Virus record (IMG/VR): IMGVR_UViG_3300032177_000054
Coordinates: 1-29,154 of that record
Origin: a virus
Direction: 5' to 3' (one strand)
Length of the DNA stretch: 29,154 nucleotides
The translations under genes were made by a program, and so were the position numbers. Under the pieces are notes generated by a model that saw nothing but the letters and a program-made list of their open reading frames with translations, did no database searches and was not told the DNA's origin. Shown here in pieces: positions 3,299 through 18,470 of the stretch; position 1 is the stretch's first letter, and every line of letters starts with the position of its first letter.

Positions 3299-4531
3299 AT
3301 GGACATACAGATAGACTTATCCTCATGGCAGCATTTTGCACTACAACTAATCCTTAGATTACGATTTTCAGTAATAAGCGCCGGACGACAAAGCGGGAAA
3401 ACCACATTACTAGTTTTTGTTATAGTATACATGGCCTTAAAAAAAGCAAATAGCATTAATTGGTGGGTGGCTCCAACCTATGCCCCAACAAAAATCGCCT
3501 TTAGACGTACGCTTAAATTCCTAATTAAAAACAAAATACCACATACCGTGAATCGATCGGAATTGAGAATTGAGCTACAAAATGGATCGACAATTGAGTT
3601 TAAATCGGGCGATAGAGAAGAAGGCCTAAGGGGTGAGTCTGTAAACTTTTTAGTTATAGACGAAATGGGACTTTTGAAAAGAATGGCTTGGGAAGAGGCT
3701 CTGCGGGGAACGATAACGGCTACCGAGGCAAAGTGTGTGTTTATCGGCACACCAAAAGGTAAAAATCTATTTTACGAATTATTTGCCAAAGGGCAGGATG
3801 TGCAAGAAAAGGAGTGGACTTCGATACAAGTATCTAGTAAAGAGTCTCCATACTTCCCCGATAACGAATGGGAAGAAGTCAAAAAAATGCCTGCCAGGAT
3901 ATTCGATCAGGAATATTGGGCGCATTTCATAGAGGACGGAGGCGAGGTTTTTAGGAGGATAACTGAATGCGTTCAGGGGTCATTGCAAGACTACAATAGT
4001 CATAAACAATATTTCGCAGGAGTAGACCTTGCTAAACATAGCGACTATACAGTTATATGTATTTTGGATAATAACGGTCATCTGGTGTATTTCGATCGGT
4101 TTAACGATATTGCTTGGACCATACAGAAAGCGAGGATAATAGACGCCTGCAATAAATATAATGCATATGCCCTTATAGATAGCACCGGTCTGGGTGATCC
4201 CATCCTTGACGACTTAACCATGCATATGCGGTGTGAGGGCTATAAATTTGATAATACATCTAAACGACATCTAATCGAAACACTATCCATGTCGATTGAG
4301 CGCACAGATATCACATTTCCAGAGATACCAGAGCTAATAAACGAGCTAAACATTTTTACATTTGACCAGTCGCCCTCTGGGCTGATACGCTATAACGCGC
4401 CGGACGGACTTCACGACGACATAGTAATATCACTCTCACTAGCTAATTTTATATACAAGAGACAATCTGGGCATAGCGTAGACGATTTTACAGATATTGG
4501 GAAACGGGTTGTTGAAGATTTTTATGCTTGA
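3299..4531 (+). CDS. terL: terminase large subunit
   Basis: This 410-aa packaging motor protein has a complete N-terminal ATPase: Walker A AGRQSGKTT (28-36), Walker B LVIDE with catalytic Glu (118-122) and the coupling motif GTPKG (150-154). The C-terminal RNase-H-like nuclease has its acidic residues at D243 (FAGVDLAKHSDYT), D294 (LIDSTGLGD) and D373/D374 (GLHDDIVIS). It docks on the portal, translocates DNA into the prohead and cuts concatemers. It belongs to the Terminase_6-type group and is slightly shorter than many members (420-550 aa) but has no missing motif. The TGA stop is embedded in the TTGACA of the next promoter. Confidence 0.95.
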   Translation: MDIQIDLSSWQHFALQLILRLRFSVISAGRQSGKTTLLVFVIVYMALKKANSINWWVAPTYAPTKIAFRRTLKFLIKNKIPHTVNRSELRIELQNGSTIEFKSGDREEGLRGESVNFLVIDEMGLLKRMAWEEALRGTITATEAKCVFIGTPKGKNLFYELFAKGQDVQEKEWTSIQVSSKESPYFPDNEWEEVKKMPARIFDQEYWAHFIEDGGEVFRRITECVQGSLQDYNSHKQYFAGVDLAKHSDYTVICILDNNGHLVYFDRFNDIAWTIQKARIIDACNKYNAYALIDSTGLGDPILDDLTMHMRCEGYKFDNTSKRHLIETLSMSIERTDITFPEIPELINELNIFTFDQSPSGLIRYNAPDGLHDDIVISLSLANFIYKRQSGHSVDDFTDIGKRVVEDFYA

Positions 4532-4591: not shown

Positions 4592-5470
4592 ATGAAATAT
4601 TTGTTATATCGGCTTCAATGGTTTCTCGCACAATACATTCAATTCGACCACCCCATACACGTAGACATAGAGATTAATAATAACTGCAATCAAAAATGTA
4701 TGTCGTGTTGGCACTCTGATGCAAGCAAACGTAAGTTTAAAATTGAAACAATGCCGTACGAAGATGTAATGTGTAACATCGACTATTTTAAAGTCCTAGG
4801 GTGTAAGAGCATTAAATTTAATCTACGTGGCGAGCCTTTTTTAAACGAGCAACTAGAGCAGTATTTAAGATACGCTAAAAAGCTTGGTTATGTCGATGTG
4901 ATGCTAAATACAAACCTTACGTGCAACAAACAAAAGCTAATTAAATGCCTGCCTTACATCGACACGTTGATAGTTAGCCTGGATTCATTCGAGTCTAAGA
5001 CGTACAATAAACTACATGGTACCGACAACGACTACATTAAATTATTATACAACCTTAGAATACTTAGCGAGTTAAGCGACCTAGGAAAGCTCAAAACACG
5101 AATAATACTAAACTACCATGTAAACAAATACAATGCACTTGAAAGTCATCCTAAAACATATATGGGATTTAAAATTATCTATCGATATACACAGAATAGA
5201 GAAGGACAGAATATTTCTATTAAGCTCAATGACAAAAGAAAGAAAAAATGCCCACACATGATGAGACGTGTTACCGTTATGGCAAACGGAAAGATGTATC
5301 CATGTTGTGTGTGCTACAACGAGCCTAATGACATTAGAGTCGATGATATATACTCCGATGGCAAAAACGGAAAATATGAATCCCACTTTCGTAATGCTCT
5401 GATAGATACATATAGCTTTAACATGCAAGAGTCGTGCAAGAACTGCACTTCACAGGATGTATACAAATGA
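4592..5470 (+). CDS. radical SAM/SPASM-like enzyme
   Basis: This 292-aa protein has a radical SAM CxxxCxxC motif at C32, C36 and C39 (NNNCNQKCMSCW), which ligates the 4Fe-4S cluster that cleaves SAM, and a GGE-like motif (LRGEPFLNEQL). The barrel strands LMLNTNLTC-like and DTLIVSLDSF follow. Its C-terminus has the cysteine pattern of a SPASM/twitch auxiliary-cluster domain: C220, then C238/C239/C241, then C282/C285. Related enzymes modify peptides or sugars. Since the next genes handle nucleotide sugars, a sugar epimerase, dehydratase or deoxygenase role is inferred, but peptide modification cannot be excluded. It overlaps the next gene by 4 nt (ATGA). Confidence 0.88.
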   Translation: MKYLLYRLQWFLAQYIQFDHPIHVDIEINNNCNQKCMSCWHSDASKRKFKIETMPYEDVMCNIDYFKVLGCKSIKFNLRGEPFLNEQLEQYLRYAKKLGYVDVMLNTNLTCNKQKLIKCLPYIDTLIVSLDSFESKTYNKLHGTDNDYIKLLYNLRILSELSDLGKLKTRIILNYHVNKYNALESHPKTYMGFKIIYRYTQNREGQNISIKLNDKRKKKCPHMMRRVTVMANGKMYPCCVCYNEPNDIRVDDIYSDGKNGKYESHFRNALIDTYSFNMQESCKNCTSQDVYK

Positions 5471-6780
5471 GAAAAGATGAGAACGTCGGAATTATAGTTA
5501 CTGCTAGAGTGCGGTCGAACAGGATACGGGAAAAGGTACTTCAAAAGATAGGGAATAGATTGGCGATAGAGATATTGCTAGATCACATAGTTAATCCTAA
5601 ATACCCTGTAATTCTGGCCATACCTACTAACGAGGCAGACGACATCCTGGCAGATATAGCAGAAGAAAAAGGCGTACTGTGTTTTAGGGGGAATGACGAT
5701 AGCCCTTTACATAGAATCGTAGATTGTGCGGACGCTTACGACTTTGACCATGTAGTGCGAGTAACAGCGGACGACATTCTCATTGACTTGCAGATAATGC
5801 TTAACCAGATACGCTTTCATCTGGCGGGAACACAAGACTATACGTATTGCAGACGATTGCCAGAGGGGTGTGGCGTAGAAGTAATTAAAACAGATGTTTT
5901 AAGACAGACCGTAAAAGATGTTGGGAATAAGCCCATTGAATTCATAAGCTATTATATCAAAGATAAATACGTAACAAAAGAATACTACCCGCACTTAGAT
6001 TTTCAGCATGCTTATAGATGCACAATGGATTACCCAGAGGACGTAACAATGTTACGCCTTCTATTCGCCTGTATGGATAGCCCTGGAACGCTGGACATTA
6101 TAAACTTCCTCGAGAAACACTCGTATTTTTGCAAAATAAATCAACTGCCAATTGTTACAATTTACACGTGCAACTATAATACATCCAAATACATTGTTGA
6201 CTGTATGAACTCAGTAGTAGCGCAAGCGTTCGACGAATTTGAGTACATTGTGCTTGACGACTGCTCGAGTGACGATAGTATGAACATAATTACGGAATGG
6301 TATACTAATCAGAATCAATCTGTACAAAAAAAAGTGAGGATATTGAGAAATGATACAAACATTGGGCTTTCTGCTTCTTCCAATAAAATGCTTAATGTGG
6401 CTCGCGGTCGCTACATTATTCGTGTTGATAGTGACGATACCGTATTACCTTCTATGCTTAGTCGTATGGTTGAGGAAGTCAAAAATAATGATTGTCAGGC
6501 CATCCTTTCTGGCTTTAATTCTGTGAAAGAAAACGGAGACATTATTTCTTATGAGAGAGAAAACCCCTTCCATCCTGGGTGCTCGCTAATATCAAGATGG
6601 GCTGCAAACGAATTGAAATATAGAGAAGACTTGGAGTTTATGGAAGGACAGGAATTTTTTAAACGATTCAACGAAGCGTACAAAGTGAGATTTATAAAAG
6701 ATGCGTTATGGAATTATCGTAGACGCCCTGGACAGAAGACACAGGACGCAAGGCACCCAAATAATACTGAAAAGGACTAA
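5467..6780 (+). CDS. SpsF-like cytidylyltransferase fused to GT2 glycosyltransferase
   Basis: This is a 437-aa two-domain protein, starting at the ATGA overlap at 5467 rather than at an in-frame ATG further up. Residues 1 to about 220 match SpsF/CMP-sugar synthetase-type nucleotidyltransferases: GIIVTARVRSNRIREKVL (equivalent to IxARxxSxRLPGKVL), PTNEADDILADIAEEKGV, CFRGNDDSPLHR, and RVTADDILID. Residues 229 to about 430 are a GT-A family 2 glycosyltransferase: TIYTCNYNTSKYI, LDDCSSDDS, and RVDSDD with the metal-binding DxD at D321-D323. The fusion suggests one protein both activates a sugar (probably with CMP) and transfers a sugar. The usual PG in LPGK is replaced by RE. Substrates are unknown. 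Confidence 0.88.
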   Translation: MRKDENVGIIVTARVRSNRIREKVLQKIGNRLAIEILLDHIVNPKYPVILAIPTNEADDILADIAEEKGVLCFRGNDDSPLHRIVDCADAYDFDHVVRVTADDILIDLQIMLNQIRFHLAGTQDYTYCRRLPEGCGVEVIKTDVLRQTVKDVGNKPIEFISYYIKDKYVTKEYYPHLDFQHAYRCTMDYPEDVTMLRLLFACMDSPGTLDIINFLEKHSYFCKINQLPIVTIYTCNYNTSKYIVDCMNSVVAQAFDEFEYIVLDDCSSDDSMNIITEWYTNQNQSVQKKVRILRNDTNIGLSASSNKMLNVARGRYIIRVDSDDTVLPSMLSRMVEEVKNNDCQAILSGFNSVKENGDIISYERENPFHPGCSLISRWAANELKYREDLEFMEGQEFFKRFNEAYKVRFIKDALWNYRRRPGQKTQDARHPNNTEKD

Positions 6781-6784
6781 CAAA

Positions 6785-7648
6785 ATGAAAAAGAAATTAC
6801 TGGTTACCGGCGGGAACGGGTTCATTGGTTCGCACTACGTGGACCTAGTAAAAGACAAATATGATGTTACGGTTTATGATCTCCCAGAAAACGACATTTT
6901 AGAATACGAAAAACTATGCCTATACATTAGCCGATGTGATATTGTTGTGCACTTTGCCGCGATTGCCGACCTATACGAAACAGCCAAGGACTACGAAAAA
7001 AACTTTAACGTAAATGTTACCGCAACTACTTGTATCGGCCGACTATGCCAAAGGATGAACAAAAAGCTCGTATATATTTCCACTTGCTGTGCATACGGAA
7101 ATAGCATGGACAAGGTCGAGAAAGAATTTTATACCAATCCCATGACAGACGAGCCATACGCCTGTAGCAAAGTCGCAGCCGAGTACATGCTTAGAGGTAT
7201 ACATGATCTTAAATACGCAATACTCAGGATAGGGACCGCTTATGGACCACGACAAAGGGAGACGCTTTTTACATATCGCGCTATTGACTATATCAAAAAA
7301 GGTAAAACAATCACAGTACATGGTGATGGCAAGCAAGACAGAAACCTTATTTATATTGCTGATCTCGTTGAAGGTATTAAGCTGGCTACTGACAAAATAA
7401 GCAGCATACAAGGCGAGATTATAAATCTATGCGGGAAGGAGCGAATATCGGCACTTGATACGATAGCCCACGCTGAACGGGTAACAGGGATTAAGGCTAA
7501 AGTTAAGCATGGGAAAGACCGTCAAGGCCAGATACGCCACGAAAACATATCAATTAAAAAAGCAAAAGAATTGCTAGGATGGGAGCCTAAAGCATCATTT
7601 AAAAAAGGCATGGACTTATCTCACAAAAATGATGAGAGGTTTAATTGA
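6785..7648 (+). CDS. NAD-dependent epimerase/dehydratase (extended SDR)
   Basis: This 287-aa protein has the Rossmann glycine motif TGGNGFIG (8-15), FAAIADL after the fourth strand, YISTCCAYG with the catalytic Ser/Thr, and the active-site Y-x3-K at Y125/K129 (YACSKVAAEY). The later RIGTAYGPRQ and GDGKQDRNLIYIADL stretches are typical of UDP-glucose 4-epimerase/dTDP-glucose dehydratase relatives. It probably epimerises or oxidises a nucleotide sugar. I chose ATG 6785, 4 nt after the previous stop, because the upstream part of the open frame lies inside the preceding gene. At 287 aa it is slightly shorter than usual (about 310-340). Confidence 0.9.
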   Translation: MKKKLLVTGGNGFIGSHYVDLVKDKYDVTVYDLPENDILEYEKLCLYISRCDIVVHFAAIADLYETAKDYEKNFNVNVTATTCIGRLCQRMNKKLVYISTCCAYGNSMDKVEKEFYTNPMTDEPYACSKVAAEYMLRGIHDLKYAILRIGTAYGPRQRETLFTYRAIDYIKKGKTITVHGDGKQDRNLIYIADLVEGIKLATDKISSIQGEIINLCGKERISALDTIAHAERVTGIKAKVKHGKDRQGQIRHENISIKKAKELLGWEPKASFKKGMDLSHKNDERFN

Positions 7649-7652
7649 TAAT

Positions 7653-7931
7653 ATGAAATATAATATCTTAATAGCGTTTTATCTATCAACATTTATTGCA
7701 CTGTTTGCGTTCGTTGGCTGTGAACTAAGCGAGTACAAAGAAAAGACTGGCGACGCTTATGCAAGCCGATACTATCGCTATGTAATACGCACAGAGATTA
7801 CGGTATATGAGTGCGACAATGTCTACGTGTCATCACAGTCAGAAAATAGTTTGTACTGTGAATGTTATCGCGATGATGGCACAAAAATCATTGTCAAGGG
7901 CAGCCACGCTATAGAGAGATATAACAGATAA
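7653..7931 (+). CDS. putative lipoprotein
   Basis: This 92-aa protein begins MKYNILIAFYLSTFIALFA, a signal sequence ending in a lipobox-like AFVGC, so Cys would be lipidated at about residue 23. The mature part is small, polar, with three further cysteines (YECDN, YCECYRD), beta-rich, and could sit on an envelope surface. I prefer ATG 7653, which follows GAGG at 7634-7637, over an in-frame ATG at 7629 that overlaps the epimerase. Small phage lipoproteins often block superinfection by binding receptors; that is inference here. Confidence 0.6.
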   Translation: MKYNILIAFYLSTFIALFAFVGCELSEYKEKTGDAYASRYYRYVIRTEITVYECDNVYVSSQSENSLYCECYRDDGTKIIVKGSHAIERYNR

Positions 7932-8236
7932 TGCAGACTTTATTTGCTTGCACACAAGAGGATTTTTTAAAACAGATTTATAGGATATCGTCCCAGAATT
8001 TAGTAAAACTGCTATATGAGATATACGAGCTGAAGCACGACAGAGGGCAGTTTTGGGATGAAAGCACAATGATGGATATTGAGCGAAAAGAAACAAAGAT
8101 AAATGCAGAGCTAATTCGCAGAGGGTATCTTGACAAAAAGGGATACGAAGAGTACTTTAGAATGATGAGAAAGCTAGGGAATGGTAAAAAGAAAGTGTTT
8201 ACGCATGGCGTTCCTGTTATAGGTAAAACAGAATGA
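7931..8236 (+). CDS. hypothetical helical protein in glycan cassette
   Basis: This 101-aa charged protein is mainly alpha-helical (DFLKQIYRISSQNLVKLLY, DESTMMDIERKETKINAELI) with a basic C-terminus ending GVPVIGKTE. No signal peptide, membrane segment or known motif was found. It starts at a TAATG overlap with the lipoprotein gene and ends in an ATGA overlap with the aldolase gene, so it is co-translated with them. It may be a small partner of one of these proteins; function unknown. Confidence 0.6.
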   Translation: MQTLFACTQEDFLKQIYRISSQNLVKLLYEIYELKHDRGQFWDESTMMDIERKETKINAELIRRGYLDKKGYEEYFRMMRKLGNGKKKVFTHGVPVIGKTE

Positions 8237-8937
8237 TAATAGCAGGTGACTGTTTATATACTGACTATCTTGATGAAGACAGAATAATACATAACGCCGA
8301 AGAATTAAAAGGCGTTGTTGATTATTTTAGATGCAAGATTTTTGGTGGCGGCACTAGGCCAGATAGATATATTGCAGGAATAGGAATAAATGGGATTGAA
8401 ACGCTATCATATATCGACAAAGAAATTATCCCATGCGGAACAGAGATACAAACATTATCTCAATACAAAATGTGTGATACATTATCTTATCACTGGATAG
8501 GCGCAAGGAATAGTCAAAACTACGGTTTTTTAAATGAGATATCATGCAGTAAAAAAGACGTTATGATTAAGCGTGGAGCCTCAATAACTATAGACGAGAC
8601 CATTGGATTATTTGATATTATGAAGCATATCAACAACAAAGAAGTGTATATTATAGAGCGTGGGATAAATACTTTTGATAGACTTGACGACTCGCGCTGG
8701 TCACCTGACCTTAAGGGAGTTATACGCATTAAGCACGAACGGCCAGATATATTTGATAGACTTATTATAGACTGCTCTCATAGCGTAGGACGCAAAGAAT
8801 ATGTAGCAGATACATACAAAGCGTTCAAGGCTATTGGCATAAAGCATTTTATGTTTGAGTGCACGATAGATGGATTCAGCAAGACTGATTATAGGCACAT
8901 GTTGAGCGCTAAAGAATTAAAGGAGTTACTGAAATGA
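8233..8937 (+). CDS. DAHP-synthase-like PEP aldolase with altered acceptor site
   Basis: This 234-aa protein follows the class I DAHP synthase (AroG/AroF type) barrel: IIAGDC at 2-7, WIGARNSQN (88-96), VMIKRG (110-115), YIIERGINTF (139-148), IIDCSHSVGRK (178-188), FMFECTID (206-213). The metal ligands are present (C7, H183, E209, D219), as are residues that hold PEP in the family (A91-R92, K113, R143, H183). However, the K-P-R-[ST] motif that binds erythrose 4-phosphate is replaced by GGGTRPD (38-44), GPCS is GDCL, and ERGIRTF is ERGINTF. It probably condenses PEP, or a close analogue, with a different aldehyde to make a ulosonic acid. There is no ACT or chorismate-mutase regulatory domain. 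An inactive homologue is the alternative. Confidence 0.8.
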   Translation: MIIAGDCLYTDYLDEDRIIHNAEELKGVVDYFRCKIFGGGTRPDRYIAGIGINGIETLSYIDKEIIPCGTEIQTLSQYKMCDTLSYHWIGARNSQNYGFLNEISCSKKDVMIKRGASITIDETIGLFDIMKHINNKEVYIIERGINTFDRLDDSRWSPDLKGVIRIKHERPDIFDRLIIDCSHSVGRKEYVADTYKAFKAIGIKHFMFECTIDGFSKTDYRHMLSAKELKELLK

Positions 8938-10238
8938 TTAGACTAGAAAATTGCCCGATTTGTGACACTGACGACTGGAAGAAGTTAGACTATCTCAGGG
9001 ACCTTGAAAGGTGGTACGACAATGACTACAGGGAAGAGGGCGAGCAGGTAGGGTTTAAAATATGCAAACATTGCGGTTTTGTAACGTATGACTACGTAGA
9101 AGTAGATAGGCTTCAAAAGTTGTATACGCAACTTAGACCGATGGTTCGGGCTGAAAATGTTGTCACGCAGCGCAGAAAGAATTTATATCACAACGAGATG
9201 ATATTTAACAAACTTGACTCACATTTTATGGATCGCAGAAAAAATAATTTGAGATGCCTCGACGTGGGATGTGCAACGGGAGAATTTCTGGACCTGTTAA
9301 AGTCATATAATATTTTCAACGAATACTATGGTACGGAATGGTCAAAGGGATTTGTCGGATATGCCAAGAACGAATTTGGATTTAAAATTACAGAAGAAAT
9401 AGATACATCTATCAAATACGACTTTATATCATACTATCACGTACTAGAGCATATCCAAAGCCCAGACAAAGAACTAGCGAAGATCAGAAACATTTTGAAT
9501 GACGACGGATTGCTATACATTGCAGTACCAACATGGTTTGTTGATATCGAAGAGCCGTCTGGTATGTCTTGCTTGGACTTTGAAGAGTATTTCCACCTTA
9601 ATCACGTTAATGTATTTAGTGAGATGTCTTTTTTAAATTTAATGCATAAATGCGGATTCGAAATAATCAAAACAGATAAAAAAATGTATGGGTATGCAGT
9701 TCTATGCAAAAAGACCGATGCAACATATAATGTTGTGATTGAATCATACGAAGAGAAAGTGTCGATGCTCGAGATAATCAAAACGGCAATGGACTTTGCC
9801 ATAAAGAATGACTTTGTTAATGCTATAAAAACATTCCCTAAATATCCTGAAGCGTATTGTTATCTAAGCGTTAATAAGGAAAACCAGAAAAGCCTTAAGG
9901 TTCAAGAGCAGTTGCTCGAAGGAGGCCTAAAGCACAGTCCGCTGAACAAAAAATTAAAAATCCAATTGGCTAAACTATATATACAGTGGGACGAAAATAC
10001 CGGAGACAATCGGTTTTATTCCAACAATATTAAAAAATCAGAACGGCTATGGAACGAATTGATGAAAGATTGCATTGCACTAGAGGAGCCACAGTACTAC
10101 CTAGGCATAATAAATGGCAACTATAAGGGCGAATACAAAAAAGCGATTGAGTGTTTTAAAGACGTTATGGAGGCGAATCCATTAAGATATGGCGAGATAT
10201 TAAACTTAATAGGGTACTATTCCAAGTTTTTGTCTTGA
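8934..10238 (+). CDS. zinc-ribbon SAM methyltransferase with TPR-like tail
   Basis: This is a 434-aa protein in three parts. Residues 1-50 form a zinc ribbon (C7-x2-C10, C44-x2-C47) of the kind preceding sugar C-methyltransferases (Methyltransf_13 type). Residues about 100-255 are a class I SAM methyltransferase: motif I LDVGCATGEF (109 onward), YYHVLEH (around H169-H173), and LLYIAVPTWF. The classical C-terminal Methyltransf_14 domain is not evident. Instead, residues about 270-434 are helical and TPR-like (EPQYYLGIINGNYKGEYKKAIECFKDVMEANP), perhaps for protein or glycan-complex binding. It probably methylates a nucleotide sugar or glycan. Its TGA overlaps the next TTGACA promoter. Confidence 0.85.
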   Translation: MIRLENCPICDTDDWKKLDYLRDLERWYDNDYREEGEQVGFKICKHCGFVTYDYVEVDRLQKLYTQLRPMVRAENVVTQRRKNLYHNEMIFNKLDSHFMDRRKNNLRCLDVGCATGEFLDLLKSYNIFNEYYGTEWSKGFVGYAKNEFGFKITEEIDTSIKYDFISYYHVLEHIQSPDKELAKIRNILNDDGLLYIAVPTWFVDIEEPSGMSCLDFEEYFHLNHVNVFSEMSFLNLMHKCGFEIIKTDKKMYGYAVLCKKTDATYNVVIESYEEKVSMLEIIKTAMDFAIKNDFVNAIKTFPKYPEAYCYLSVNKENQKSLKVQEQLLEGGLKHSPLNKKLKIQLAKLYIQWDENTGDNRFYSNNIKKSERLWNELMKDCIALEEPQYYLGIINGNYKGEYKKAIECFKDVMEANPLRYGEILNLIGYYSKFLS

Positions 10239-10263
10239 CAAATAAATCAGTATGTATTATTTT
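10235..10263 (+). promoter_or_regulatory. promoter of the head/tail operon
   Basis: TTGACA (10235-10240) overlaps the TGA stop of the methyltransferase gene, as at 4528. TATTTT at 10258-10263 lies 17 bp away; TATTAT at 10255-10260 is a better box but with a 14-bp spacer. The leader to the TTG at 10314 is AT-rich with no T-run hairpin. This promoter would let the structural genes be expressed separately from the cassette. Confidence 0.5.
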
Positions 10264-10276
10264 AAGTATATACTGA
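10247..10276 (+). promoter_or_regulatory. inverted repeat, possible operator
   Basis: TCAGTAT (10247-10253) and its exact complement ATACTGA (10270-10276) flank a 16-nt AT-rich centre that contains the presumed -10 box. The arms are 7 bp, and the position over a promoter suits a repressor or activator dimer. It has no U-tract, so it is not a terminator. Confidence 0.35.
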
Positions 10277-10313
10277 AATTATTAATAGCTTAAATACTTA
10301 AATGGTTAAATAA

Positions 10314-12632
10314 TTGAGACTAGGAAGTTTAGAACTAAAAAGATACAAAGCTCCTATTGTTGAATCAATGCCCGCTAGGCAAGGGGCTGAAACTTCTTAC
10401 GCTGACTCGACTTATTATGATAAGTATTCGTTAAAACCATATAATCCCGACTCGCTCTATCAAAAAAACTCTGGGTATGCAATACACGACCAGATGAGAG
10501 AGGATGACCAGATATCATCTGTGCTTGGGCTAAAGAAACTTATCACACTTAATGCTGACTATGATATCGAATGCGAGGATGATGATGTACGCAACTTTCT
10601 ATTTGATTGTTTCGATAAATATATTGATGGAACATTTAGGTCAAAGCTATACGAGATACTGTCGTGTATGGATTATGGCTTTAGCATCACAGAAAAAATA
10701 GCGTCAGTAATAGAAACAAAAGACGGGAACAGGATTGTATTTAACAAACTAAAGACACGCGCCCCGCACACGTTCGAAATACACACAGATGACTTTGGCA
10801 ATACTACCGAGATAATGCAGCATACCGGCAAAAAAGGCGACATATCACTAGACCCAAAAAAATTTATACTCTATAGCTATAATTCTGAATTTGATAATCC
10901 TTACGGAAAGACACTTTTTAACAAAGGTGTTTATCGCGCTTGGTGGTCAAAGGATGCTATTATTAAATTCTGGAATATGTACCTTGAACGATTTGGAATG
11001 CCGCTAACGGTAGGCACGATACCTAAGTCAGCCTCCACAGAGGACAAGGATAGATTTAAAACAGCCTTAGGATCAATACAATCGCGTACCGCACTCACTG
11101 TCCCTGAAGGATTTCTAGTAGACCTTAAAAAGGCTAGTGAAACGCCTGGGGAATTCGAAAAAGCAATTGATAAATATAATACGATGATGGCACGCTCAAT
11201 GCTTGTACCTGACCTACTTGGGTTCAGTGGGAGCGAGACTGGCGGCGGGTCGTTTGCTCTAGGTAAAGAGCAGTTTAACATCTTTTATACAGGCATTGAA
11301 TACGATAGACAGAATTTAGCAAATATCATCCAGCGAGAATTAGTTAATCCACTTGTATCGTGGAATTTTGGATCTAAGGTTGAGGCTTACTTTTGTTGGA
11401 AACAGGTTGATAGCGACAAGAAGCTAAACGACATGAAGCTTTGGATTGAAGCCGTTAAGACTGGCAAAGTGCCTGTTAAAGGCGATCACGTAAATTGGTT
11501 CCTGTCTGGAGTGGGCGCACCGGAAATAGATCAAGACGAACTAGACATTATCGACGATCAAAAAGACGCTATGAGAGAAAATCTTTCCGGTGTAGTTGGT
11601 GCAAATAATGCACAGGCTCAACCTGAAGGCGAAGCGCAAGACAAAACACAAGAAACGATAGAAGAAAACAAAGAACAAATACAAGAAAAAGAAGAGCCAG
11701 AGAAATCAGATGATAGCCAAGCCGAAAAGCAAATGTGCGAATGTGGGCATGAACATACCTATCAAGAGATAAACGACATAAGCCTTGACTCGCTTTCTCA
11801 ATACGAAAAGAAAGCTGATTTCTCAAAAATCATAAAAGAAACCGACAATATTGAAGCTAAATACAAAGAGCTTCTAGGAAACATATTTAAGACATCGATA
11901 AATGCCCTAGTTGACGAGATAAGAACCAGAAAAATAATAGAGAAAAAAAGAATCGACTCAATTAATAAGCTCAACCTTAAATATCAACCACAGATAAAAA
12001 AGATAGTTAAGGATATGATGAGCGAGTCCGTTGTGTTGGGCGAGACTACCGCGCCGATACCAAATAAGTACAAAAAGTACGACCTGGTTGATGTTACGTC
12101 ACAGCTTAACGACGATGATATAGCAACGTGGATTGATAACTACGCTTTTTATGTATCTGACATGGAGGCAGGATTTATACTAGGAAAAGTAAAGCCTATA
12201 CTTATGTCGGCGATACAGAAGGGCTTGGGAACGGCCGAAACAGTTAAGCTAATCAACGACGCTCTCATAGGATACGATATTAAAACTACAGAGACCGGCG
12301 GTAGTGCTCGCATAGATATTATAGTTAGGACAAACGTAAACAAGGCCTACAATCAGGCACTCGTAAAAGACTTTGCTCGAATACAAGAATACATACAAGC
12401 TTATCAGATCAGCGCGATAATGGATAAACGGACAAGCGCAACCTGCCAAGCATTAAATCACAAAATAATTAAAGCCAACCAACTTAGTTATTATACTCCG
12501 CCCTTCCACTTTCGATGCCGAACAACGCTAGTGCCAATATTCATAGACGAGGAACCGGTTGACTGGAATAGTCCCGAAGCGCAGCTTCCCGCGACAGATC
12601 AAGCAGAAGGAGGGTTTTTAGAGCTTAAATGA
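10314..12632 (+). CDS. portal protein (DUF935, Mu gp29-like) fused to MuF head-morphogenesis domain
   Basis: This 772-aa fusion has a DUF935 portal at residues 1 to about 420 (MREDDQISSVLGLKKLI early; PDLLGFSGSETGGGSFALGKEQF and LVNPLVSWNFG late). A low-complexity Glu/Gln/Lys linker (about 430-480) follows, with a Cys/His knot CECGHEH at C475-H481. The MuF (gp30/SPP1 gp7-like) domain ends the protein: RTNVNKAYNQAL (672 onward), DKRTSATCQALN (704 onward), FHFRCRTTLVP (731 onward). In Mu these are separate proteins. The portal is the DNA channel at the head vertex, and MuF is a minor head protein. The start is TTG with no clear ribosome site and an in-frame stop just upstream; the first ATG is codon 19. 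Confidence 0.9.
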   Translation: MRLGSLELKRYKAPIVESMPARQGAETSYADSTYYDKYSLKPYNPDSLYQKNSGYAIHDQMREDDQISSVLGLKKLITLNADYDIECEDDDVRNFLFDCFDKYIDGTFRSKLYEILSCMDYGFSITEKIASVIETKDGNRIVFNKLKTRAPHTFEIHTDDFGNTTEIMQHTGKKGDISLDPKKFILYSYNSEFDNPYGKTLFNKGVYRAWWSKDAIIKFWNMYLERFGMPLTVGTIPKSASTEDKDRFKTALGSIQSRTALTVPEGFLVDLKKASETPGEFEKAIDKYNTMMARSMLVPDLLGFSGSETGGGSFALGKEQFNIFYTGIEYDRQNLANIIQRELVNPLVSWNFGSKVEAYFCWKQVDSDKKLNDMKLWIEAVKTGKVPVKGDHVNWFLSGVGAPEIDQDELDIIDDQKDAMRENLSGVVGANNAQAQPEGEAQDKTQETIEENKEQIQEKEEPEKSDDSQAEKQMCECGHEHTYQEINDISLDSLSQYEKKADFSKIIKETDNIEAKYKELLGNIFKTSINALVDEIRTRKIIEKKRIDSINKLNLKYQPQIKKIVKDMMSESVVLGETTAPIPNKYKKYDLVDVTSQLNDDDIATWIDNYAFYVSDMEAGFILGKVKPILMSAIQKGLGTAETVKLINDALIGYDIKTTETGGSARIDIIVRTNVNKAYNQALVKDFARIQEYIQAYQISAIMDKRTSATCQALNHKIIKANQLSYYTPPFHFRCRTTLVPIFIDEEPVDWNSPEAQLPATDQAEGGFLELK

Positions 12633-12811
12633 ACAGCAAAATAAAAATATTTGGGAAGTGCATTGAGTTACCGTTTAAGATAACATTTAAAAGATTTATT
12701 ATTTTATTATTGCTTTTTTTAATGTGTGCACCTCTAGTATTTGTAAAACATTGTTACTGTGATTTTAACAAAAAAATACTAGAATACGAAAAACAAAACC
12801 TAAGAGGTTAA
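12629..12811 (+). CDS. small single-pass membrane protein
   Basis: This 60-aa protein starts at an ATGA overlap with the portal gene. A basic N-terminus precedes a hydrophobic segment (RFIILLLLFLMCAPLVFV, about residues 22-39) and then a short polar tail with two cysteines (KHCYCDFNKK). This is a type II-like anchor or an uncleaved signal sequence. Its position in the head operon is unexpected; it could be a membrane-acting moron or a lysis helper. Function unknown. Confidence 0.55.
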   Translation: MNSKIKIFGKCIELPFKITFKRFIILLLLFLMCAPLVFVKHCYCDFNKKILEYEKQNLRG

Positions 12812-12812
12812 A

Positions 12813-13322
12813 ATGTCTGGAAACGCCAAAGGACCTGCTGATACAATTAATATTCCAATTGAACATTTTAAAGTTCATAATGGACAAATGTTTTATCTTA
12901 GTTATACCTTCGCCGCCGTTGCGGATAGCGCGACCGTAGAAATGATAATGTTTACCGGAGACGAGCCGCCACACGTTGTGATAACCGCTACAAGTCCCGG
13001 AGCTGCAAGGATATCTATATTATCCAACCCAACTAGTACGGCAAACGGTACGACGTTGACATCGTACAACATGTGCCGTACTAGTACAAATGTTGCAGCC
13101 GCCATAATGACTTATGCCCCGACAAATGCAACAAGCACGACGATTATTGTAAACGATTATATTCCTGGCGGGAGCACTGTACAAACAAGAGTAGGCGCGT
13201 CAGCGAGACAAAATACTGAATGGATATTTAAGCCTAATTATAAATATTTAATACGATTTGAAAACCTAGCTAAGGCACAAGCCGATTATATGAACCTGGT
13301 TTTTGAATGGTACGAGGATTAA
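12813..13322 (+). CDS. putative virion surface/decoration protein
   Basis: This 169-aa protein is beta-rich, full of Thr, Ser and Ala, with no signal sequence. It has the N-terminal HNGQMFYLSYTF pattern and the C-terminal NTEWIFKPNYKYLIRFEN...FEWYED pattern seen in small phage proteins encoded in head modules. Those are suspected decoration or head-associated proteins; I cannot name a defined family. The GAGG site (aagaggttaaaATG) supports the start. Position between MuF and the protease supports a head role. Confidence 0.6.
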   Translation: MSGNAKGPADTINIPIEHFKVHNGQMFYLSYTFAAVADSATVEMIMFTGDEPPHVVITATSPGAARISILSNPTSTANGTTLTSYNMCRTSTNVAAAIMTYAPTNATSTTIIVNDYIPGGSTVQTRVGASARQNTEWIFKPNYKYLIRFENLAKAQADYMNLVFEWYED

Positions 13323-13323
13323 T

Positions 13324-14460
13324 ATGCCAATGCCCAAGCCCAAACCAATGGAATCTCAAAAAGACTTTATGTCTCGGTTTATGAGTGACGAGACAATGCT
13401 GGCCGAATACCCAGACGATAAACAAAGGATGGCAATAGCAGAGCAGGCCTGGTCAGATAGTCAAGAGTCGCTAAAAAACAATGAAGAGTTGGCCTACGAA
13501 ACTGTAGATGTTGACGGCGTAGAGATATTTAAATCCGGAACATGGAACGGAGACAAATACACCGACGCCGACTTGGATGAAATGGTTTATGCTCATAATG
13601 AAATAGGCGCAAAGCTAAAGCCTTATGTAAAACTAGGACACGATAACGGCCAAGCATTATTACAAAAAGACGGCTATCCAAGCGCCGGATGGATTAAGAA
13701 GCTATATAGAACAGGCAATACTTTATTTGCAGACCTAGGAAGTGTACCTAAAAAAATTAAATCGCTTATTGATTCCAAAGCCTATGGGCGCATAAGCCCA
13801 GAAATTTATTGGAATGCAGAGATAGGCGGTAAGAAATATAAGCGCGCCGTCAAGGCAATGGCACTGCTTGGTGGAAACACGCCAGCAGTGACCGAACTAA
13901 ATGATTTCATAAACCTATATACTGAAAATAACAATGTAAACGCTGAATTTATAAAACTATGTAGTTCGTATGAAGGAGATACCATAATGGATGAAAAACA
14001 ATATGCAGATAAAATTAGTGAGCTTGAAACACAAGTCAAAGAATATTCTGCAAAGAACACTGACCTTCAACTTCAACTAGAAAAGATTGAAATTGAAAAG
14101 CTCTATTCAGAAGCCAATTCAATTCTTGATGCAGCCGAAAAGGAAGGCAAAATAGTACCTGCTCAACGGTCAGCACTCATGGCACTGGCTACCGATAAAG
14201 GATTAAAAAGTTACTCTAGCGACGGCAAGAGCGTTGAAGGTTCAGGACTTGACTTTGTTAAATCGGTTATTGAAAATTCGCCGAAAGTTGTAGATTTTAG
14301 CGAAGCTTCAAAACAAAACGTACCAGAAAAATCTAAAAATTATTCTGCTATGGACGAGACAGAGAAGGGCGAAGAGCTTGATAAACGCGCCAAGGTTTAT
14401 TCAAAGGAAAACAATGTAACATATAAAGAAGCGCTGAAAATCGTTTCTATGGAGGTTTGA
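13324..14460 (+). CDS. Mu gpI-like head maturation protease with C-terminal scaffold
   Basis: This 378-aa protein starts at ATG 13324, which follows GAGG and the previous stop. The first about 45 residues (Pro-rich start, then DFMSRFMSDETMLAEYPDDKQRMAIAEQAW) form a short motif found at the head of many phage prohead proteases. Residues about 60-210 resemble phage I-like proteases (GTWNGDKYTDADLDEMVYAHN, PYVKLGHD, PSAGWIKKLY, YGRISPEIYWN, ALLGGNTPAV). Residues about 222-378 are a coiled-coil scaffold (KISELETQVKEYSAKNTDLQLQ). In Mu, gpI cuts scaffold and itself during head maturation. The scaffold portion is also made from an internal start. Confidence 0.85.
   Translation: MPMPKPKPMESQKDFMSRFMSDETMLAEYPDDKQRMAIAEQAWSDSQESLKNNEELAYETVDVDGVEIFKSGTWNGDKYTDADLDEMVYAHNEIGAKLKPYVKLGHDNGQALLQKDGYPSAGWIKKLYRTGNTLFADLGSVPKKIKSLIDSKAYGRISPEIYWNAEIGGKKYKRAVKAMALLGGNTPAVTELNDFINLYTENNNVNAEFIKLCSSYEGDTIMDEKQYADKISELETQVKEYSAKNTDLQLQLEKIEIEKLYSEANSILDAAEKEGKIVPAQRSALMALATDKGLKSYSSDGKSVEGSGLDFVKSVIENSPKVVDFSEASKQNVPEKSKNYSAMDETEKGEELDKRAKVYSKENNVTYKEALKIVSMEV
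13987..14460 (+). CDS. nested scaffold protein (Mu gpZ-like) from internal start
   Basis: An in-frame ATG at 13987 lies 8 nt after a strong ribosome binding site, GAAGGAG (13972-13978). It would yield a 157-aa protein identical to the coiled-coil C-terminus of the protease. This is the same arrangement as I/Z in Mu and C/Nu3 in lambda, where the free scaffold is needed in excess over protease. The sequence shows the site directly; production of the shorter protein is inferred. Confidence 0.75.
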   Translation: MDEKQYADKISELETQVKEYSAKNTDLQLQLEKIEIEKLYSEANSILDAAEKEGKIVPAQRSALMALATDKGLKSYSSDGKSVEGSGLDFVKSVIENSPKVVDFSEASKQNVPEKSKNYSAMDETEKGEELDKRAKVYSKENNVTYKEALKIVSMEV

Positions 14461-14462
14461 TT

Positions 14463-14867
14463 ATGGCAATGATAGGAAGCAATAACACAGTAAGAGAAAG
14501 TTTTAAGTGTGGTGCAAGTGTTGCGACTACCACTTCTCAATATAAATCTTGTTATTTAAGCACCGACTTTACGGTATCAATTTGTACCGCGCTCACTGAT
14601 AAAGTGGTCGGGATTATTGATAGCTATCAGACGAGTGACAGTAAGGTTTGTGAGGTAATTACTTTTGGATTTGCAAAAGGCTATATGTTGGCCGGGACTG
14701 TATGTTCAGCGGGCGACATGCTCACGCCAGCAGCGGGCGGGACGGTGACTTTGTTTATCACAAACACCAGCTTGCAATATCTTATAGGAATGGCAATGGA
14801 TACACCAGCCACAGCCGGAGCAGTAACTATTTACGTCAATCCTCAAAAATACGGGATTAAATCTTAA
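14463..14867 (+). CDS. capsid decoration protein (DUF2190/gpD-like)
   Basis: This 134-aa beta-rich, Gly/Ala/Thr-rich protein begins MAMIGSNNTVRESFKC. The start ATG 14463 is 7 nt after GGAGG; an in-frame TTG at 14457 is less likely. The sequence KVVGIIDSYQTSDSKVCEVITFGFAKGYMLAG... reads like DUF2190-type head stabilisation proteins, which describe a pseudo-constant VITFG/GxA and a late LIGMAMDTP segment. It lies directly before the major capsid gene, as decoration genes usually do. It would cap the capsid surface and stabilise it after DNA entry. Confidence 0.7.
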   Translation: MAMIGSNNTVRESFKCGASVATTTSQYKSCYLSTDFTVSICTALTDKVVGIIDSYQTSDSKVCEVITFGFAKGYMLAGTVCSAGDMLTPAAGGTVTLFITNTSLQYLIGMAMDTPATAGAVTIYVNPQKYGIKS

Positions 14868-14880
14868 GGAGGTTTATATT

Positions 14881-15816
14881 ATGGCATACGGTGGAAATTT
14901 ACATATTAATAAAGCTTTGACTAATGTATCAATTCAATACAGGAACAACGAATTTATTGGATCGATGATTATGAAGGACATCCCAGTGGCGAAAGAATCT
15001 GATGTATATTATATATATGCAAAAGATATGCGTATGGCCGAGACACTTAGAGCTAACAAATCGGCATCAAAACAAATTACGTGGGGCGTATCGACAACTT
15101 CTTACAGTCTCGACGAACATGCAATAAGCGATGTTGTTACAGACCGCGATCGAAAAAACGCGGACTCTCCAATTAACATGGACATTGACGCCACGGAATT
15201 TTTGACAGACAAAATTCTCATGCGTCAAGAAAAAGACTTTGCAGACCTGCTGTTTACAACAGGTACATGGTCTAACAATACCACTCTCACAACCGCGACC
15301 GCGTGGAAGTACAACACCACTACCAGCGCACCAATTCAGAATGTTTTGAGCGCTACTGGTCTTGTAATTAAACAATCAGGGAAAAGACCCAATACTCTTA
15401 TTTTGAATTTTGAAGGGTTTGCAGCACTTAAAGAAAATACAAACGTATACTCTCGTATTCAGTACGTAGAAAAAGCGATTATTACAGAACAATTGCTTGC
15501 AAGTATTTTTGATGTTCAGAATGTTTATGTAGGCTTAGGAGTTTATGATGCAGGCATGGAAGGTGGCACAGAGTCTCTCACGTCGATATGGGGCCCTGAT
15601 GCACTGCTTGCATATTTCGATCCAAGCGCAACTGGACTTAAAAAAGTCACCGCTGGCTTTAATCTTAGGATGTCAGACTCTGGAAATCCTTATAAGGTTA
15701 AAAAATGGCGTGAAGAAAAGCTTTCAGGTGATGTAATTGAAGTATCTACAATGTTCAAGCCGGTAGCGGTAGCGACATTGTGCGGTTATTTTTTCAAAAC
15801 TGTAGCATTAGCATAA
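14881..15816 (+). CDS. major capsid protein
   Basis: This 311-aa HK97-fold-like major head protein has a strong ribosome binding site (AAGGAGG, then ATG 14881), consistent with high expression. It has an N-terminal SIQYRNNEFIGSMIMKDIPVAKES segment, a long helix with many charged residues (DATEFLTDKILMRQEKDFADLLF), and a beta-rich C-terminus with GPDALLAYFDPS and TLCGYFFKTVALA. It follows protease, scaffold and decoration genes in the order used by Mu- and lambda-like phages. No cleavable long delta domain is evident, fitting a separate scaffold. Confidence 0.88.
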   Translation: MAYGGNLHINKALTNVSIQYRNNEFIGSMIMKDIPVAKESDVYYIYAKDMRMAETLRANKSASKQITWGVSTTSYSLDEHAISDVVTDRDRKNADSPINMDIDATEFLTDKILMRQEKDFADLLFTTGTWSNNTTLTTATAWKYNTTTSAPIQNVLSATGLVIKQSGKRPNTLILNFEGFAALKENTNVYSRIQYVEKAIITEQLLASIFDVQNVYVGLGVYDAGMEGGTESLTSIWGPDALLAYFDPSATGLKKVTAGFNLRMSDSGNPYKVKKWREEKLSGDVIEVSTMFKPVAVATLCGYFFKTVALA

Positions 15817-15844
15817 TTTAGTATAATACTGATTGAGGTAAAAA

Positions 15845-16039
15845 ATGGATCAAGTTAAAGTTAATTCGAACGAAAATCTCTCGCAAGAAAACGAGAAACA
15901 ATACTCGAAAGATTCTATTGTTTCGCAATCCGAAGAAAAAATATTCATAGGTAAAAAAACTAAGGTTTTTACTGTGACTAAATTTAAAAACGGTGTTGTT
16001 AAACGTAGACTTAAAGAGATTTATAAGGGCAAAAAGTAA
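15845..16039 (+). CDS. small hydrophilic protein of unknown function
   Basis: This 64-aa protein is highly charged and Ser/Asn/Lys-rich at the N-terminus with a more ordered C-terminal half (IFIGKKTKVFTVTKFKNGVVKRRLKEIYKGKK). The GAGG site (attgaggtaaaaaATG) supports it. Short genes with this appearance commonly sit between major capsid and connector genes in phages and are sometimes head-tail joining or Rho-like N-domains; neither is shown here. Confidence 0.55.
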   Translation: MDQVKVNSNENLSQENEKQYSKDSIVSQSEEKIFIGKKTKVFTVTKFKNGVVKRRLKEIYKGKK

Positions 16040-16042
16040 ATT

Positions 16043-16534
16043 ATGGGATACGCCACTATAACGAGCATTCAAACTATCCTTCCGAAATTACCACAAACTA
16101 CGACGGCGACCGGTTACTCGACGGCTGCTGCTGTAATTTCGAAACACATTGATAGAGCGAGTGCTGTTATAAATGGCTATATTTCAAAACGATATAGCTT
16201 GCCGTTTAGTAGCACGATACCGTTGCTTGTAAGTATTTGCGAGGATATTGTAAGTTACTATACGGCAAGGTCGTTTTTTCAACAGGACAATTTCAATAGA
16301 CTAGACTCGCTAGCAGAACTAAAAACCGATGCTATGCTTACCCTCAAGGACATTATGGACGGCAACATTGACTTGATTGATAGCACCGGATCACTGGTGG
16401 ATGGCATTGATCTAGGCGAAGAGTCAAATGTTGATAGTACTACATACGATGAGGCAACATTTTTTGAGGTTGACGACTCCCTGGATTGGGACTTTGACGT
16501 TGTGAGAAAAGACAGGGTGAGTGACAAACGATGA
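16043..16534 (+). CDS. head-tail connector/adaptor (DUF1320, Mu gp36-like)
   Basis: This 163-aa protein shows the DUF1320 pattern: an early helix ITSIQTILPKL, a central ISKHIDRASAVINGYISKRYSLPF signature, then ICEDIVSYYTARSFF and TDAMLTLKDI helices. Such proteins form the ring directly under the portal. The C-terminal 50 residues are an acidic extension (GIDLGEESNVD...DDSLDWDFD) beyond the usual domain. Its stop overlaps the next gene by 4 nt (ATGA). Confidence 0.85.
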   Translation: MGYATITSIQTILPKLPQTTTATGYSTAAAVISKHIDRASAVINGYISKRYSLPFSSTIPLLVSICEDIVSYYTARSFFQQDNFNRLDSLAELKTDAMLTLKDIMDGNIDLIDSTGSLVDGIDLGEESNVDSTTYDEATFFEVDDSLDWDFDVVRKDRVSDKR

Positions 16535-16947
16535 TATCTATCCGCACAGTTGGACTAACACAAGTCCAAGAAGACTTTGAGGCGATGGCGAAACGCTGTC
16601 AAAATCCTACAACAATGTTGGAGGTTATCGCACAGAAAGGACGAAAAAACGTATTGCAGCATTTTGAAAAAGAAATGGGAGACACTGGACCATGGAAGCC
16701 ATTAAGCGCAAGTAGGGCAAAACACAAAAAGGGCGGAAAAGGGAAAATATTACAAGACACTGGAAGATTACGACTATCGATACTCGGACGTACTAAAACA
16801 AATGAAGCCCACGTTTATACTAATGTTGAGTATGCAAAGTTTCACGAATTCGGTATAGGCGTACCAGAGAGAAGATTTATGTGGTTAGACGCAACAACAA
16901 TAAGGAATATTATTTTAATGTTAAAAAACTTTTTGGTGAACGGTTAA
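16531..16947 (+). CDS. virion morphogenesis / tail completion protein (Mu gpG-like)
   Basis: This 138-aa protein has the virion-morphogenesis family features: an N-terminal helix with NPTTMLEVIAQKGRKNVLQHFE, the W-x-PLS motif (GPWKPLSASRAKHKK), a glycine/lysine loop and ILQDTGRLRLSI, then EYAKFHEFG and a RRFMWLD end. Members join heads to tails. It is encoded between the connector and the tail terminator, the normal place. Confidence 0.88.
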   Translation: MISIRTVGLTQVQEDFEAMAKRCQNPTTMLEVIAQKGRKNVLQHFEKEMGDTGPWKPLSASRAKHKKGGKGKILQDTGRLRLSILGRTKTNEAHVYTNVEYAKFHEFGIGVPERRFMWLDATTIRNIILMLKNFLVNG

Positions 16948-16948
16948 C

Positions 16949-17437
16949 ATGGCTATAGATGTATATGCAATACGCGGGTATATAGTTAATCTCTTAACCG
17001 AGAACAATACTACCACATCTAGTTACGATATAAGTAGCGGGCTAACAGAACGTGTAAAAGAAATAATTGGAGACTATGCAAAAAGCCCACAACTTAATAT
17101 CAATTACCCCGCAATATACGTTGAGACTAAAAACAAAAAAGAAGAGCATTTTGTAATGGGCGGCGGCTCCAATAAGCGTAACATCACTATGCAATTTGAC
17201 ATAGTTGCCGTATGCCAGTATGGCTTTGGGCAATTCGATGGCCGGCTACTCAGTGACAAGGAAATGATTACTTTAGCACAAAATATTGAAAGTCTGTTCA
17301 GAAACAAGATTACATTATCAAATACGGTTGACATGTGCCTTGTAACTAATACAGACTATGACGTAGAACAGGTAGGAGAGTCCACATATAATAGTGCTGC
17401 GAGGATTTCTCTGGAAGTTAAAAAATTTAGTAGTTAG
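16949..17437 (+). CDS. putative tail terminator protein
   Basis: This 162-aa protein starts 2 nt after the preceding stop. It has an alpha/beta layout: an N-terminal helix (AIRGYIVNLLTENN), a strand bearing YPAIYVETK, a central ITMQFDIVAVCQY strand, helix EMITLAQNIESLFRNKITL, and a final strand pair ending SLEVKKF. This order is typical of tail terminators that close the tube at its head-proximal end. No sequence motif is absolutely diagnostic, so the call leans on fold pattern and position. Confidence 0.7.
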   Translation: MAIDVYAIRGYIVNLLTENNTTTSSYDISSGLTERVKEIIGDYAKSPQLNINYPAIYVETKNKKEEHFVMGGGSNKRNITMQFDIVAVCQYGFGQFDGRLLSDKEMITLAQNIESLFRNKITLSNTVDMCLVTNTDYDVEQVGESTYNSAARISLEVKKFSS

Positions 17438-17444
17438 AGGTTTT

Positions 17445-18470
17445 ATGCTTACTGAAAAAGAAGTACACGATCAGTCTGTTAGGGCGTTCGAGCATTGGAA
17501 AACGATTTGGGATGAGAATACCAAGGCCAATGGCGAGTTATTAAAAAAGATTAAAACAAGCCAAAAACATTTATTAAACCTAGGCTTTGGCAAAAAACTT
17601 TTATGTGTTGCTTGTGGTGCAAGCCTAGAAACAAAAATTGATATTGTTAAAAAATACAAAACTGACGCGCTTGATATTGCTTGCGTAGATAAAGCACTTC
17701 CAATACTTATCGAACATGGGCTACACCCTAAATATGTATTTCTTGCCGACGCCGGAGTGTCCTACGAAAAGTACTGTGAAAAATATATAGGCCAGACAGA
17801 AGACATGGTTCTCATTTCTAATGTTCAGGCCAACCCTAAATGGTCGCACAACTGGAAGGGTAAAGTTGTTTTTTATGTAAATAAAGATAACATCGGAAGC
17901 GAGGCGATATATTCACCCATGTCTGGATGTGTAGAAATGATACCGGCATCAAGTAACGTCGGGAATAGCGTTATTGTGTTTAGTACACAAATACTAGGAT
18001 ATGACGAGTACCTTATGCTAGGGTATGACTTTGGATTTGGAATAGATACTCATTACTACGCATTCGAGGATAACGATAAAAGATATTGGATGAAACATGC
18101 ACAGCTTATAGATTATAGCGGAAATATTTGTTACTCATCGCAAAACTTAATATTTAGCAGCAAGTGGTTGGATGATTTTAATAGCACGATGGTTAAATCA
18201 AAAGGAATTAAGCTGCATAACTGCTCAGGATGCGGAGTGTCTGGAGTCCATCCGGCTAACCTAGAAAAGAAAATAAAGAATCTTAAATTTAGAAAATTAA
18301 CCGACGATGAAAAACTTAAGATACTAAATTCACGTATAGAAACAATATCTTTGACTGCACAGGATGGCGCTCAGGCCTTACAGCAAGCTCTTGAAAGCCA
18401 TAATGTCATAGGTATTAAATTGGACTACGTACCACATGAGGTTAACACATGGCTAAACTCAGGTATATAG
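17445..18470 (+). CDS. Maf/DUF115-family glycosyltransferase-like protein
   Basis: This 341-aa protein starts at ATG 17445 after AGAGG (17436-17440). It carries the DUF115 (MAF_flag10/MptE-like) core: a nucleotide-binding-type loop VACGASLE (55-62), ALPILIEHGLHPKYVFLADAG, LISNVQANP, and the strongly conserved SSNVGNSVIVFSTQILGYDEYLMLGYDFGF (from about 169). Maf proteins in flagellated bacteria transfer nonulosonic acids such as pseudaminic acid onto flagellin; other relatives are hydroxymethylpterin kinases. Position in the tail operon, between terminator and tube, points to glycosylation of a tail protein. It partners in this reading with the aldolase and cytidylyltransferase of the 4592-10238 cassette. 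Confidence 0.85.
   Translation: MLTEKEVHDQSVRAFEHWKTIWDENTKANGELLKKIKTSQKHLLNLGFGKKLLCVACGASLETKIDIVKKYKTDALDIACVDKALPILIEHGLHPKYVFLADAGVSYEKYCEKYIGQTEDMVLISNVQANPKWSHNWKGKVVFYVNKDNIGSEAIYSPMSGCVEMIPASSNVGNSVIVFSTQILGYDEYLMLGYDFGFGIDTHYYAFEDNDKRYWMKHAQLIDYSGNICYSSQNLIFSSKWLDDFNSTMVKSKGIKLHNCSGCGVSGVHPANLEKKIKNLKFRKLTDDEKLKILNSRIETISLTAQDGAQALQQALESHNVIGIKLDYVPHEVNTWLNSGI

Follow-up and report, generated by a model that had tools for sequence, protein, structure and literature searches.

A predicted tailed-phage route for making, activating and attaching a ulosonic acid, in which the synthase position is held by DAHPS-family or NeuB enzymes

Nonulosonic acids are O-linked to bacterial flagellin by a system composed of a phosphoenolpyruvate (PEP) aldolase (NeuB, PseI or LegI), a cytidine monophosphate (CMP)-nonulosonate synthetase and a Maf transferase. 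Bacterial Maf can use CMP-Kdo (the CMP derivative of 3-deoxy-D-manno-oct-2-ulosonic acid) as well as CMP-Neu5Ac (that of N-acetylneuraminic acid) to modify Ser/Thr, and the PF01973 domain that it contains is similar to Cst-II (PMC11339370). Because a bacterial Maf accepts CMP-Kdo, a donor other than a nonulosonic acid is plausible. Among viruses, mycobacteriophages are described as glycosylating their capsid and tail-tube proteins in work cited in PMC12363180 and PMC12619734. The window analysed here is the whole of the 29,154-base virus record IMGVR_UViG_3300032177_000054, and the system in question is a cassette of sugar genes together with a gene for a Maf-like protein (maf). The original prediction had proposed that a PEP aldolase, a CMP-type nucleotidyltransferase and a Maf protein of this phage act in succession as ulosonic acid synthase, activator and transferase.

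Six conserved genes form a compact operon at 4592-10238, with the large terminase subunit gene (TerL) upstream and the portal gene downstream. Their order is radical SAM/SPASM protein, nucleotidyltransferase fused to a family 2 glycosyltransferase (GT2), epimerase, small protein, aldolase of the 3-deoxy-D-arabino-heptulosonate 7-phosphate synthase (DAHPS) family, and zinc-ribbon methyltransferase; these, the two bordering genes, maf and the tail gene beside it are all on the + strand. The three parts named by the original prediction are full-length and intact according to the open reading frame (ORF) listing and Pfam matches, but four operon genes had been missed (radical SAM/SPASM protein, epimerase, small protein and methyltransferase). 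The aldolase (8233-8937) matches Pfam DAHP_synth_1 (PF00793) with 70.8 bits against a cut-off of 25.5, and its earlier assignment to the DAHPS rather than the NeuB family holds, since NeuB (PF03102) has no match anywhere in the record. The AlphaFold2 model of the aldolase (mean predicted local distance difference test score, pLDDT, 94.6) is a bare type I-beta DAHPS barrel, with Z of 29.5 to 5j6f and 25-28 to KDO8PS, and lacks any ACT or chorismate-mutase domain, i.e. it is a catalytic core without a regulatory domain.

Alignments show that the metal ligands C7, H183, E209 and D219 and the PEP-site residues R92 and K113 of the aldolase are conserved with cellular DAHPS. In DAHPS and KDO8PS, the Arg and Thr/Ser of the KPRT motif bind the aldose phosphate. 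The KPR[TS] substrate motif of DAHP synthases proper, which use erythrose 4-phosphate (E4P), is not kept in the window aldolase, which reads GGGT; the same position reads GGGT, LGGT or MGGT throughout the group to which the window belongs and RAGT or SAGT in other cassette DAHPSs, and KPRS is kept only in the most distant cassette member (G003). Because the lost Arg is a ligand of the aldose phosphate, another aldose acceptor is indicated, and the altered motif suggests a different aldose, which like that of NeuB may carry no phosphate. In agreement with this, the window cassette has no recognisable sugar phosphatase.

The activator is a fusion protein (5467-6780) with a CTP_transf_3 domain (PF02348, 55.2 bits, cut-off 22.6) of the SpsF/KdsB/NeuA family and a Glycos_transf_2 domain (90.2 bits), as originally proposed, and homologues favour the ATG at 5467 over an upstream GTG at 5434 as its start. 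In an alignment of 13 sequences, the nucleotidyltransferase residues S10, R12, K16, D95, D96 and D100 are invariant, and both the DD..ID motif and the DxD motif of GT2 are present. The nucleotidyltransferase is predicted from these features to be of the CMP type, activating a ulosonic acid.

Scans of viral contigs with single proteins (aldolase, TerL or Maf as the query) returned no matches, and alignment-based profiles were required to find relatives. With a profile of DAHPS sequences, the whole operon was found in G001 (L005), with main genes 42-58% identical to those of the window, and an operon of 24-43% identity in G002 (L006); a scan with the fusion protein added a dozen further cassette phages, and surveys with the major head protein and Maf, for which records were picked regardless of the cassette, added G027, G032, G034, G035, G036, G037, G039, G052, G053 and G054. 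The same cassette gene order recurs in many viral contigs that have head and tail genes in common. Since each of the three named parts is conserved in independent phages, with closest copies 42-58% identical, their presence in one genome is not a matter of chance. In total, 25 viral records from public metagenomes have the fusion or a nucleotidyltransferase ORF of fusion length (for G052 and G054 the fusion is deduced from the length of the ORF, to which G052 adds a partial profile match), a figure that differs from the number of independent lineages because it includes near-copies (G012/G053 and G020/G021). DAHPS matches elsewhere in the phage collection were mostly full bacterial genes in unverified Listeria, Staphylococcus and Enterococcus phage assemblies; they are probably bacterial contamination and served only as sequence references.

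A PEP aldolase is present in all 25 cassette records, in most of them (by Pfam or profile support) in the slot flanked by the small-protein and methyltransferase genes. Nine records have the DAHPS variant of the window, eight have another DAHPS-family enzyme and eight have NeuB, which in two cases is displaced from the slot: in G015 the slot is empty and NeuB is elsewhere between TerL and portal, and in G052 the slot is also empty, NeuB having been predicted from the pattern and then found approximately 10 kb away. When the records are labelled as DAHPS-family or NeuB on a 21-row tree of the fusion protein, five changes are required, three of which are forced by well-supported branches. Because PEP aldolases repeatedly replace each other in the same operon, the DAHPS-like enzyme is interpreted as a ulosonate synthase rather than a shikimate enzyme, and this recurrent replacement is the best available evidence that it may make a ulosonic acid.

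The NeuB proteins of the cassettes are core-only, with about 240-280 amino acids where the NCBIfam models of NeuB have about 330 positions, and seem to be without the C-terminal SAF/antifreeze-like domain of cellular NeuB. Short NeuB genes of this kind are found at L039 12192-12914, L040 6390-7295, L045 3741-4520 and L046 6387-7115. The NeuB match of G037 (L337 6641-7231) contains an in-frame TAG and that of G039 (L338 6768-7436) an in-frame TGA, so these two genes may be degenerate, although errors or recoding are also compatible with the stops.

The proposed transferase (17445-18470) is an intact Maf-like protein, as had been claimed, and a putative glycosyltransferase, encoded between the tail terminator and a tail gene and matching PF01973 (Maf_flag10/MptE) with 59.3 bits against a cut-off of 34.6. 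Its match to NCBIfam PseD is weak (3.7e-9, 35.8 bits, which does not reach the cut-off of 670). The AlphaFold2 model (pLDDT 94.1) has as its best match in the Protein Data Bank the Magnetospirillum Maf 5mu5, with Z of 23.0 over 247 residues; it aligns only to residues 238-528, so that the N-terminal domain, and with it the three-domain architecture of Maf, is absent. The second fold match is the Methanocaldococcus HPPK of the MptE type (8sd5, Z of 17.0), and sialyltransferases solved with CMP compounds match with Z of 9-10. Wherever a contig has both maf and the PHROG 290 tail gene (64 of 64), the tail gene directly follows maf, and many of these contigs show no cassette. The candidate acceptor is the product of this tail gene, which in the window is located at 18639-19661 (136 bits to PHROG 290) and encodes a protein with 22% Ser+Thr; it is most likely the protein modified, as judged from gene adjacency.

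Membership of maf in the cassette itself was considered and dropped, since the gene sits in the tail module and is found also on contigs with no cassette nearby. Being fixed beside the tail gene even there, maf is, from gene order, a core gene of the tail region, and the cassette is a variable, swappable donor module. All cassette records that reach the tail region have maf (11 plus others), and the four without it end before that region. The converse association was measured in 29 records picked by homology of the major head protein or Maf with the cassette ignored. A PEP aldolase is present in 10 of 18 records with Maf and 0 of 11 records without it (one-sided Fisher p 0.002), and CTP_transf_3 in 9 of 18 and 0 of 11, respectively (one-sided Fisher p 0.005). 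Among records with Maf of at least 26 kb, the aldolase is present in 9 of 11, and the records without Maf include contigs of 122, 124, 57 and 34 kb. Independent arrangements also occur: G025 has NeuB plus a separate CMP-nucleotidyltransferase, away from maf, whereas G040 (L339 1-3244, L340 5757-7570) has Maf, CTP_transf_3, a Maf-methyltransferase fusion and NeuB in one cluster, which spans the two ends of the record, these sharing terminal sequence. The scheme of synthase, activator and transferase drew support from the NeuB replacements, the Maf fold, the co-occurrence with Maf and the NeuB found in G052, with the correction that maf is a tail-region gene outside the operon. Comparative genomics and fold support the scheme well; the acid, CMP as its nucleotide and the acceptor are predictions.

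The phage probably glycosylates its own virion, by means of a cassette that makes the donor sugar and a transferase directed at protein. The DAHPS-family aldolase would condense PEP with an aldose to form a 2-keto-3-deoxy ulosonic acid, and the CTP_transf_3 domain would convert this acid to a CMP-sugar. The epimerase, radical SAM enzyme and methyltransferase may modify the sugar or a second residue, the fused GT2 domain may extend the glycan, and the Maf-like protein would use the CMP-activated acid to modify Ser/Thr in a virion protein, with the adjoining tail protein as the most likely target. A more specific version can be put forward only tentatively, being somewhat less likely to hold than to fail: a new kind of C7 or C8 acid would be made by the DAHPS-family enzyme from an unphosphorylated aldose and attached by Maf to the tail, with the synthase swapped between DAHPS and NeuB while the transferase and tail gene stay fixed.

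Several considerations weigh against virion glycosylation by this route. The route is known from genes, and the sugar, the CMP-sugar and the glycoprotein are deduced from them; the nucleotide used by an SpsF-type nucleotidyltransferase is presumed rather than proven, and the tail protein was chosen as acceptor for its adjacency to maf. The roles given to the radical SAM enzyme, methyltransferase and small protein, and likewise to the epimerase and GT2 domain, are conjectural. Maf occurs on contigs with no visible cassette, and so may use host donors or act otherwise. The contrast between records with and without Maf is confounded by phylogeny, because the head proteins of the records without Maf are distant from the rest.

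If the cassette instead altered lipopolysaccharide, capsule or teichoic acid on the host surface, perhaps as a barrier to superinfection, the presence of a GT2 domain would be expected, and phage-borne sugar enzymes often do act in this way, phage genes that alter host pseudaminic acid being known (PMC12053666); but the conserved cassette genes include no flippase, polymerase, membrane glycosyltransferase or Gtr-type gene, the cassette sits among late packaging and structural genes, and the partner transferase resembles those of protein O-glycosylation and is invariably beside a tail gene, which makes this explanation unlikely. It is decidedly less probable that the PF01973 protein is a relative of the MptE-like pterin diphosphokinases or a tail chaperone, with the glycan going elsewhere through GT2 alone. 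The Pfam name MptE-like, the HPPK as second fold match and the standing of maf as a core tail-region gene found without a visible cassette would agree with such a function, but the top fold match is Maf, sialyltransferases match too, the NCBIfam match is PseD/Maf, and the aldolase and nucleotidyltransferase are absent from the 11 records that lack Maf.

Hypermodification of phage DNA rather than protein by the cassette sugar is very improbable: phage glycosyltransferases add diverse glycans to DNA, according to work cited in PMC12619734, and radical SAM and GT2 genes are compatible with this, but the window has no recognisable gene for a base-modifying precursor, and a PEP aldolase or NeuB together with Maf is a better fit to protein O-glycosylation. 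A role of the aldolase as an ordinary auxiliary metabolic DAHP synthase, supplying the shikimate pathway of the host and having its neighbours by coincidence, would account for the Pfam match, the fold and the retained catalytic metal ligands, and other phage contigs do carry DAHPS genes. This can hardly be credited, however, when KPRT is lost in every cassette DAHPS but one, NeuB takes the place of the aldolase in eight records and no further shikimate gene was recognised in the window.

The conserved genes of the cassette are joined to one another by 4-base overlaps or nearly abut. Strong hydrophobic segments are absent from all of the proteins that these genes encode, which are predicted to be soluble, with no membrane protein among them. 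The radical SAM/SPASM protein (4592-5470; Radical_SAM 34.1 bits, SPASM 20.6 bits, just below the cut-off; CxxxCxxC at residues 32-39) is encoded by the first cassette gene in other phages too. The NAD-dependent sugar epimerase/dehydratase (6785-7648; Pfam Epimerase 133 bits) is present in many cassettes but not all. The small conserved protein of approximately 100 amino acids (7931-8236) has homologues in the same place in other cassettes, directly before the aldolase slot, and no Pfam or PHROG match; it is possibly a partner of the aldolase. An ORF of 100 amino acids at 7629-7931, lipoprotein-like in having a hydrophobic N-terminus followed by a cysteine, lies inside the window cassette and was not seen in other cassettes. 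The zinc-ribbon S-adenosylmethionine-dependent methyltransferase with a TPR-like C-terminal part (8934-10238; Methyltransf_23 78.4 bits) is encoded by the last cassette gene, the position of which is conserved. Downstream, the cassette is bordered by a portal fused to a minor head protein (10314-12632; PHROG 113 portal, 212.7 bits), and upstream by TerL (3299-4531; tblastn to Tunturi_4 and Thermus phage TerL, 27-38% identity).

The TerL protein of the window looks unrelated to that of L005 (8341-9567), though the portal, head and tail genes of the two are 44-55% identical, and in one of these phages the cassette precedes TerS, whereas in the other it follows TerL; from these comparisons, the packaging region appears to be exchanged as a module between them. 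A profile scan of genome contigs with the fusion alignment gave, among the matches listed, only GT2-domain matches, and neither a host nor a bacterial ancestor was found in it. In two other phage contigs (L014 2311-13836 and L026 95-11880), DAHPS-like genes are near NeuB-like and CMP-nucleotidyltransferase-like genes, with a pentose-phosphate-epimerase-like gene also in L014 and a PF01973 gene adjoining DAHPS in L026; these are possible further phage ulosonate clusters.

No description of a phage Maf supplied by a ulosonate route that the phage itself encodes was found in the literature searched, most subscription papers and preprints being outside it. If the proposed route is correct, phages carry a full set of functions to make, activate and attach acidic sugars and apply these functions to their own virions, beyond borrowing the sugars of the host, and the synthase slot varies the chemistry while the attachment machinery stays. 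This could account for variation in the surface chemistry of such phages, would direct the search for new ulosonic acids to virion coats, and would give a testable substrate for the uncharacterised SpsF-type nucleotidyltransferases and for the core-only DAHPS and NeuB enzymes of phages.

The bacterial flagellin system shares with the window the PEP aldolase, the CTP_transf_3 activator and the PF01973 transferase, and in some relatives of the window phage the likeness extends to NeuB; in the window, however, the system is encoded by a tailed phage, the synthase is of the DAHPS family with an altered substrate motif, the activator is fused to GT2, and Maf lacks its N-terminal domain and is encoded beside a phage tail gene, with no flagellin. 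The Clostridium botulinum CbMaf, a PF01973 protein that transfers an 8-carbon ulosonic acid to Ser/Thr, differs in being a cellular enzyme with flagellin as the acceptor, its Kdo coming from the E. coli strain used for expression (PMC11339370). Type I-beta DAHP synthases (Thermotoga, Pyrococcus, Listeria) have the same barrel fold and metal site as the window aldolase (Z of 28-29.5), which differs from them in GGGT for KPRT(S), in having no ACT or chorismate-mutase domain and in its glycan-operon setting. The mycobacteriophages Che8, Corndog and Myrna (Freeman et al. 2023, cited in PMC12363180 and PMC12619734) resemble the window phage in encoding transferases for virion head and tail proteins, although their system, as described in those citing papers, consists of glycosyltransferases only, with no mention there of a phage ulosonate synthase or Maf. 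A phage sugar cluster is also found in Kyanoviridae AG-345-L05, where the region L004 9989-13686 holds genes for an SpsF-like nucleotidyltransferase, an aminotransferase and NeuB-like, HAD-like and sialyltransferase-like proteins, the nucleotidyltransferase adjoining the aminotransferase and NeuB-like genes; this is a large marine virus of another family, its nucleotidyltransferase is not fused to GT2, and its glycan cluster is much larger than that of the window.

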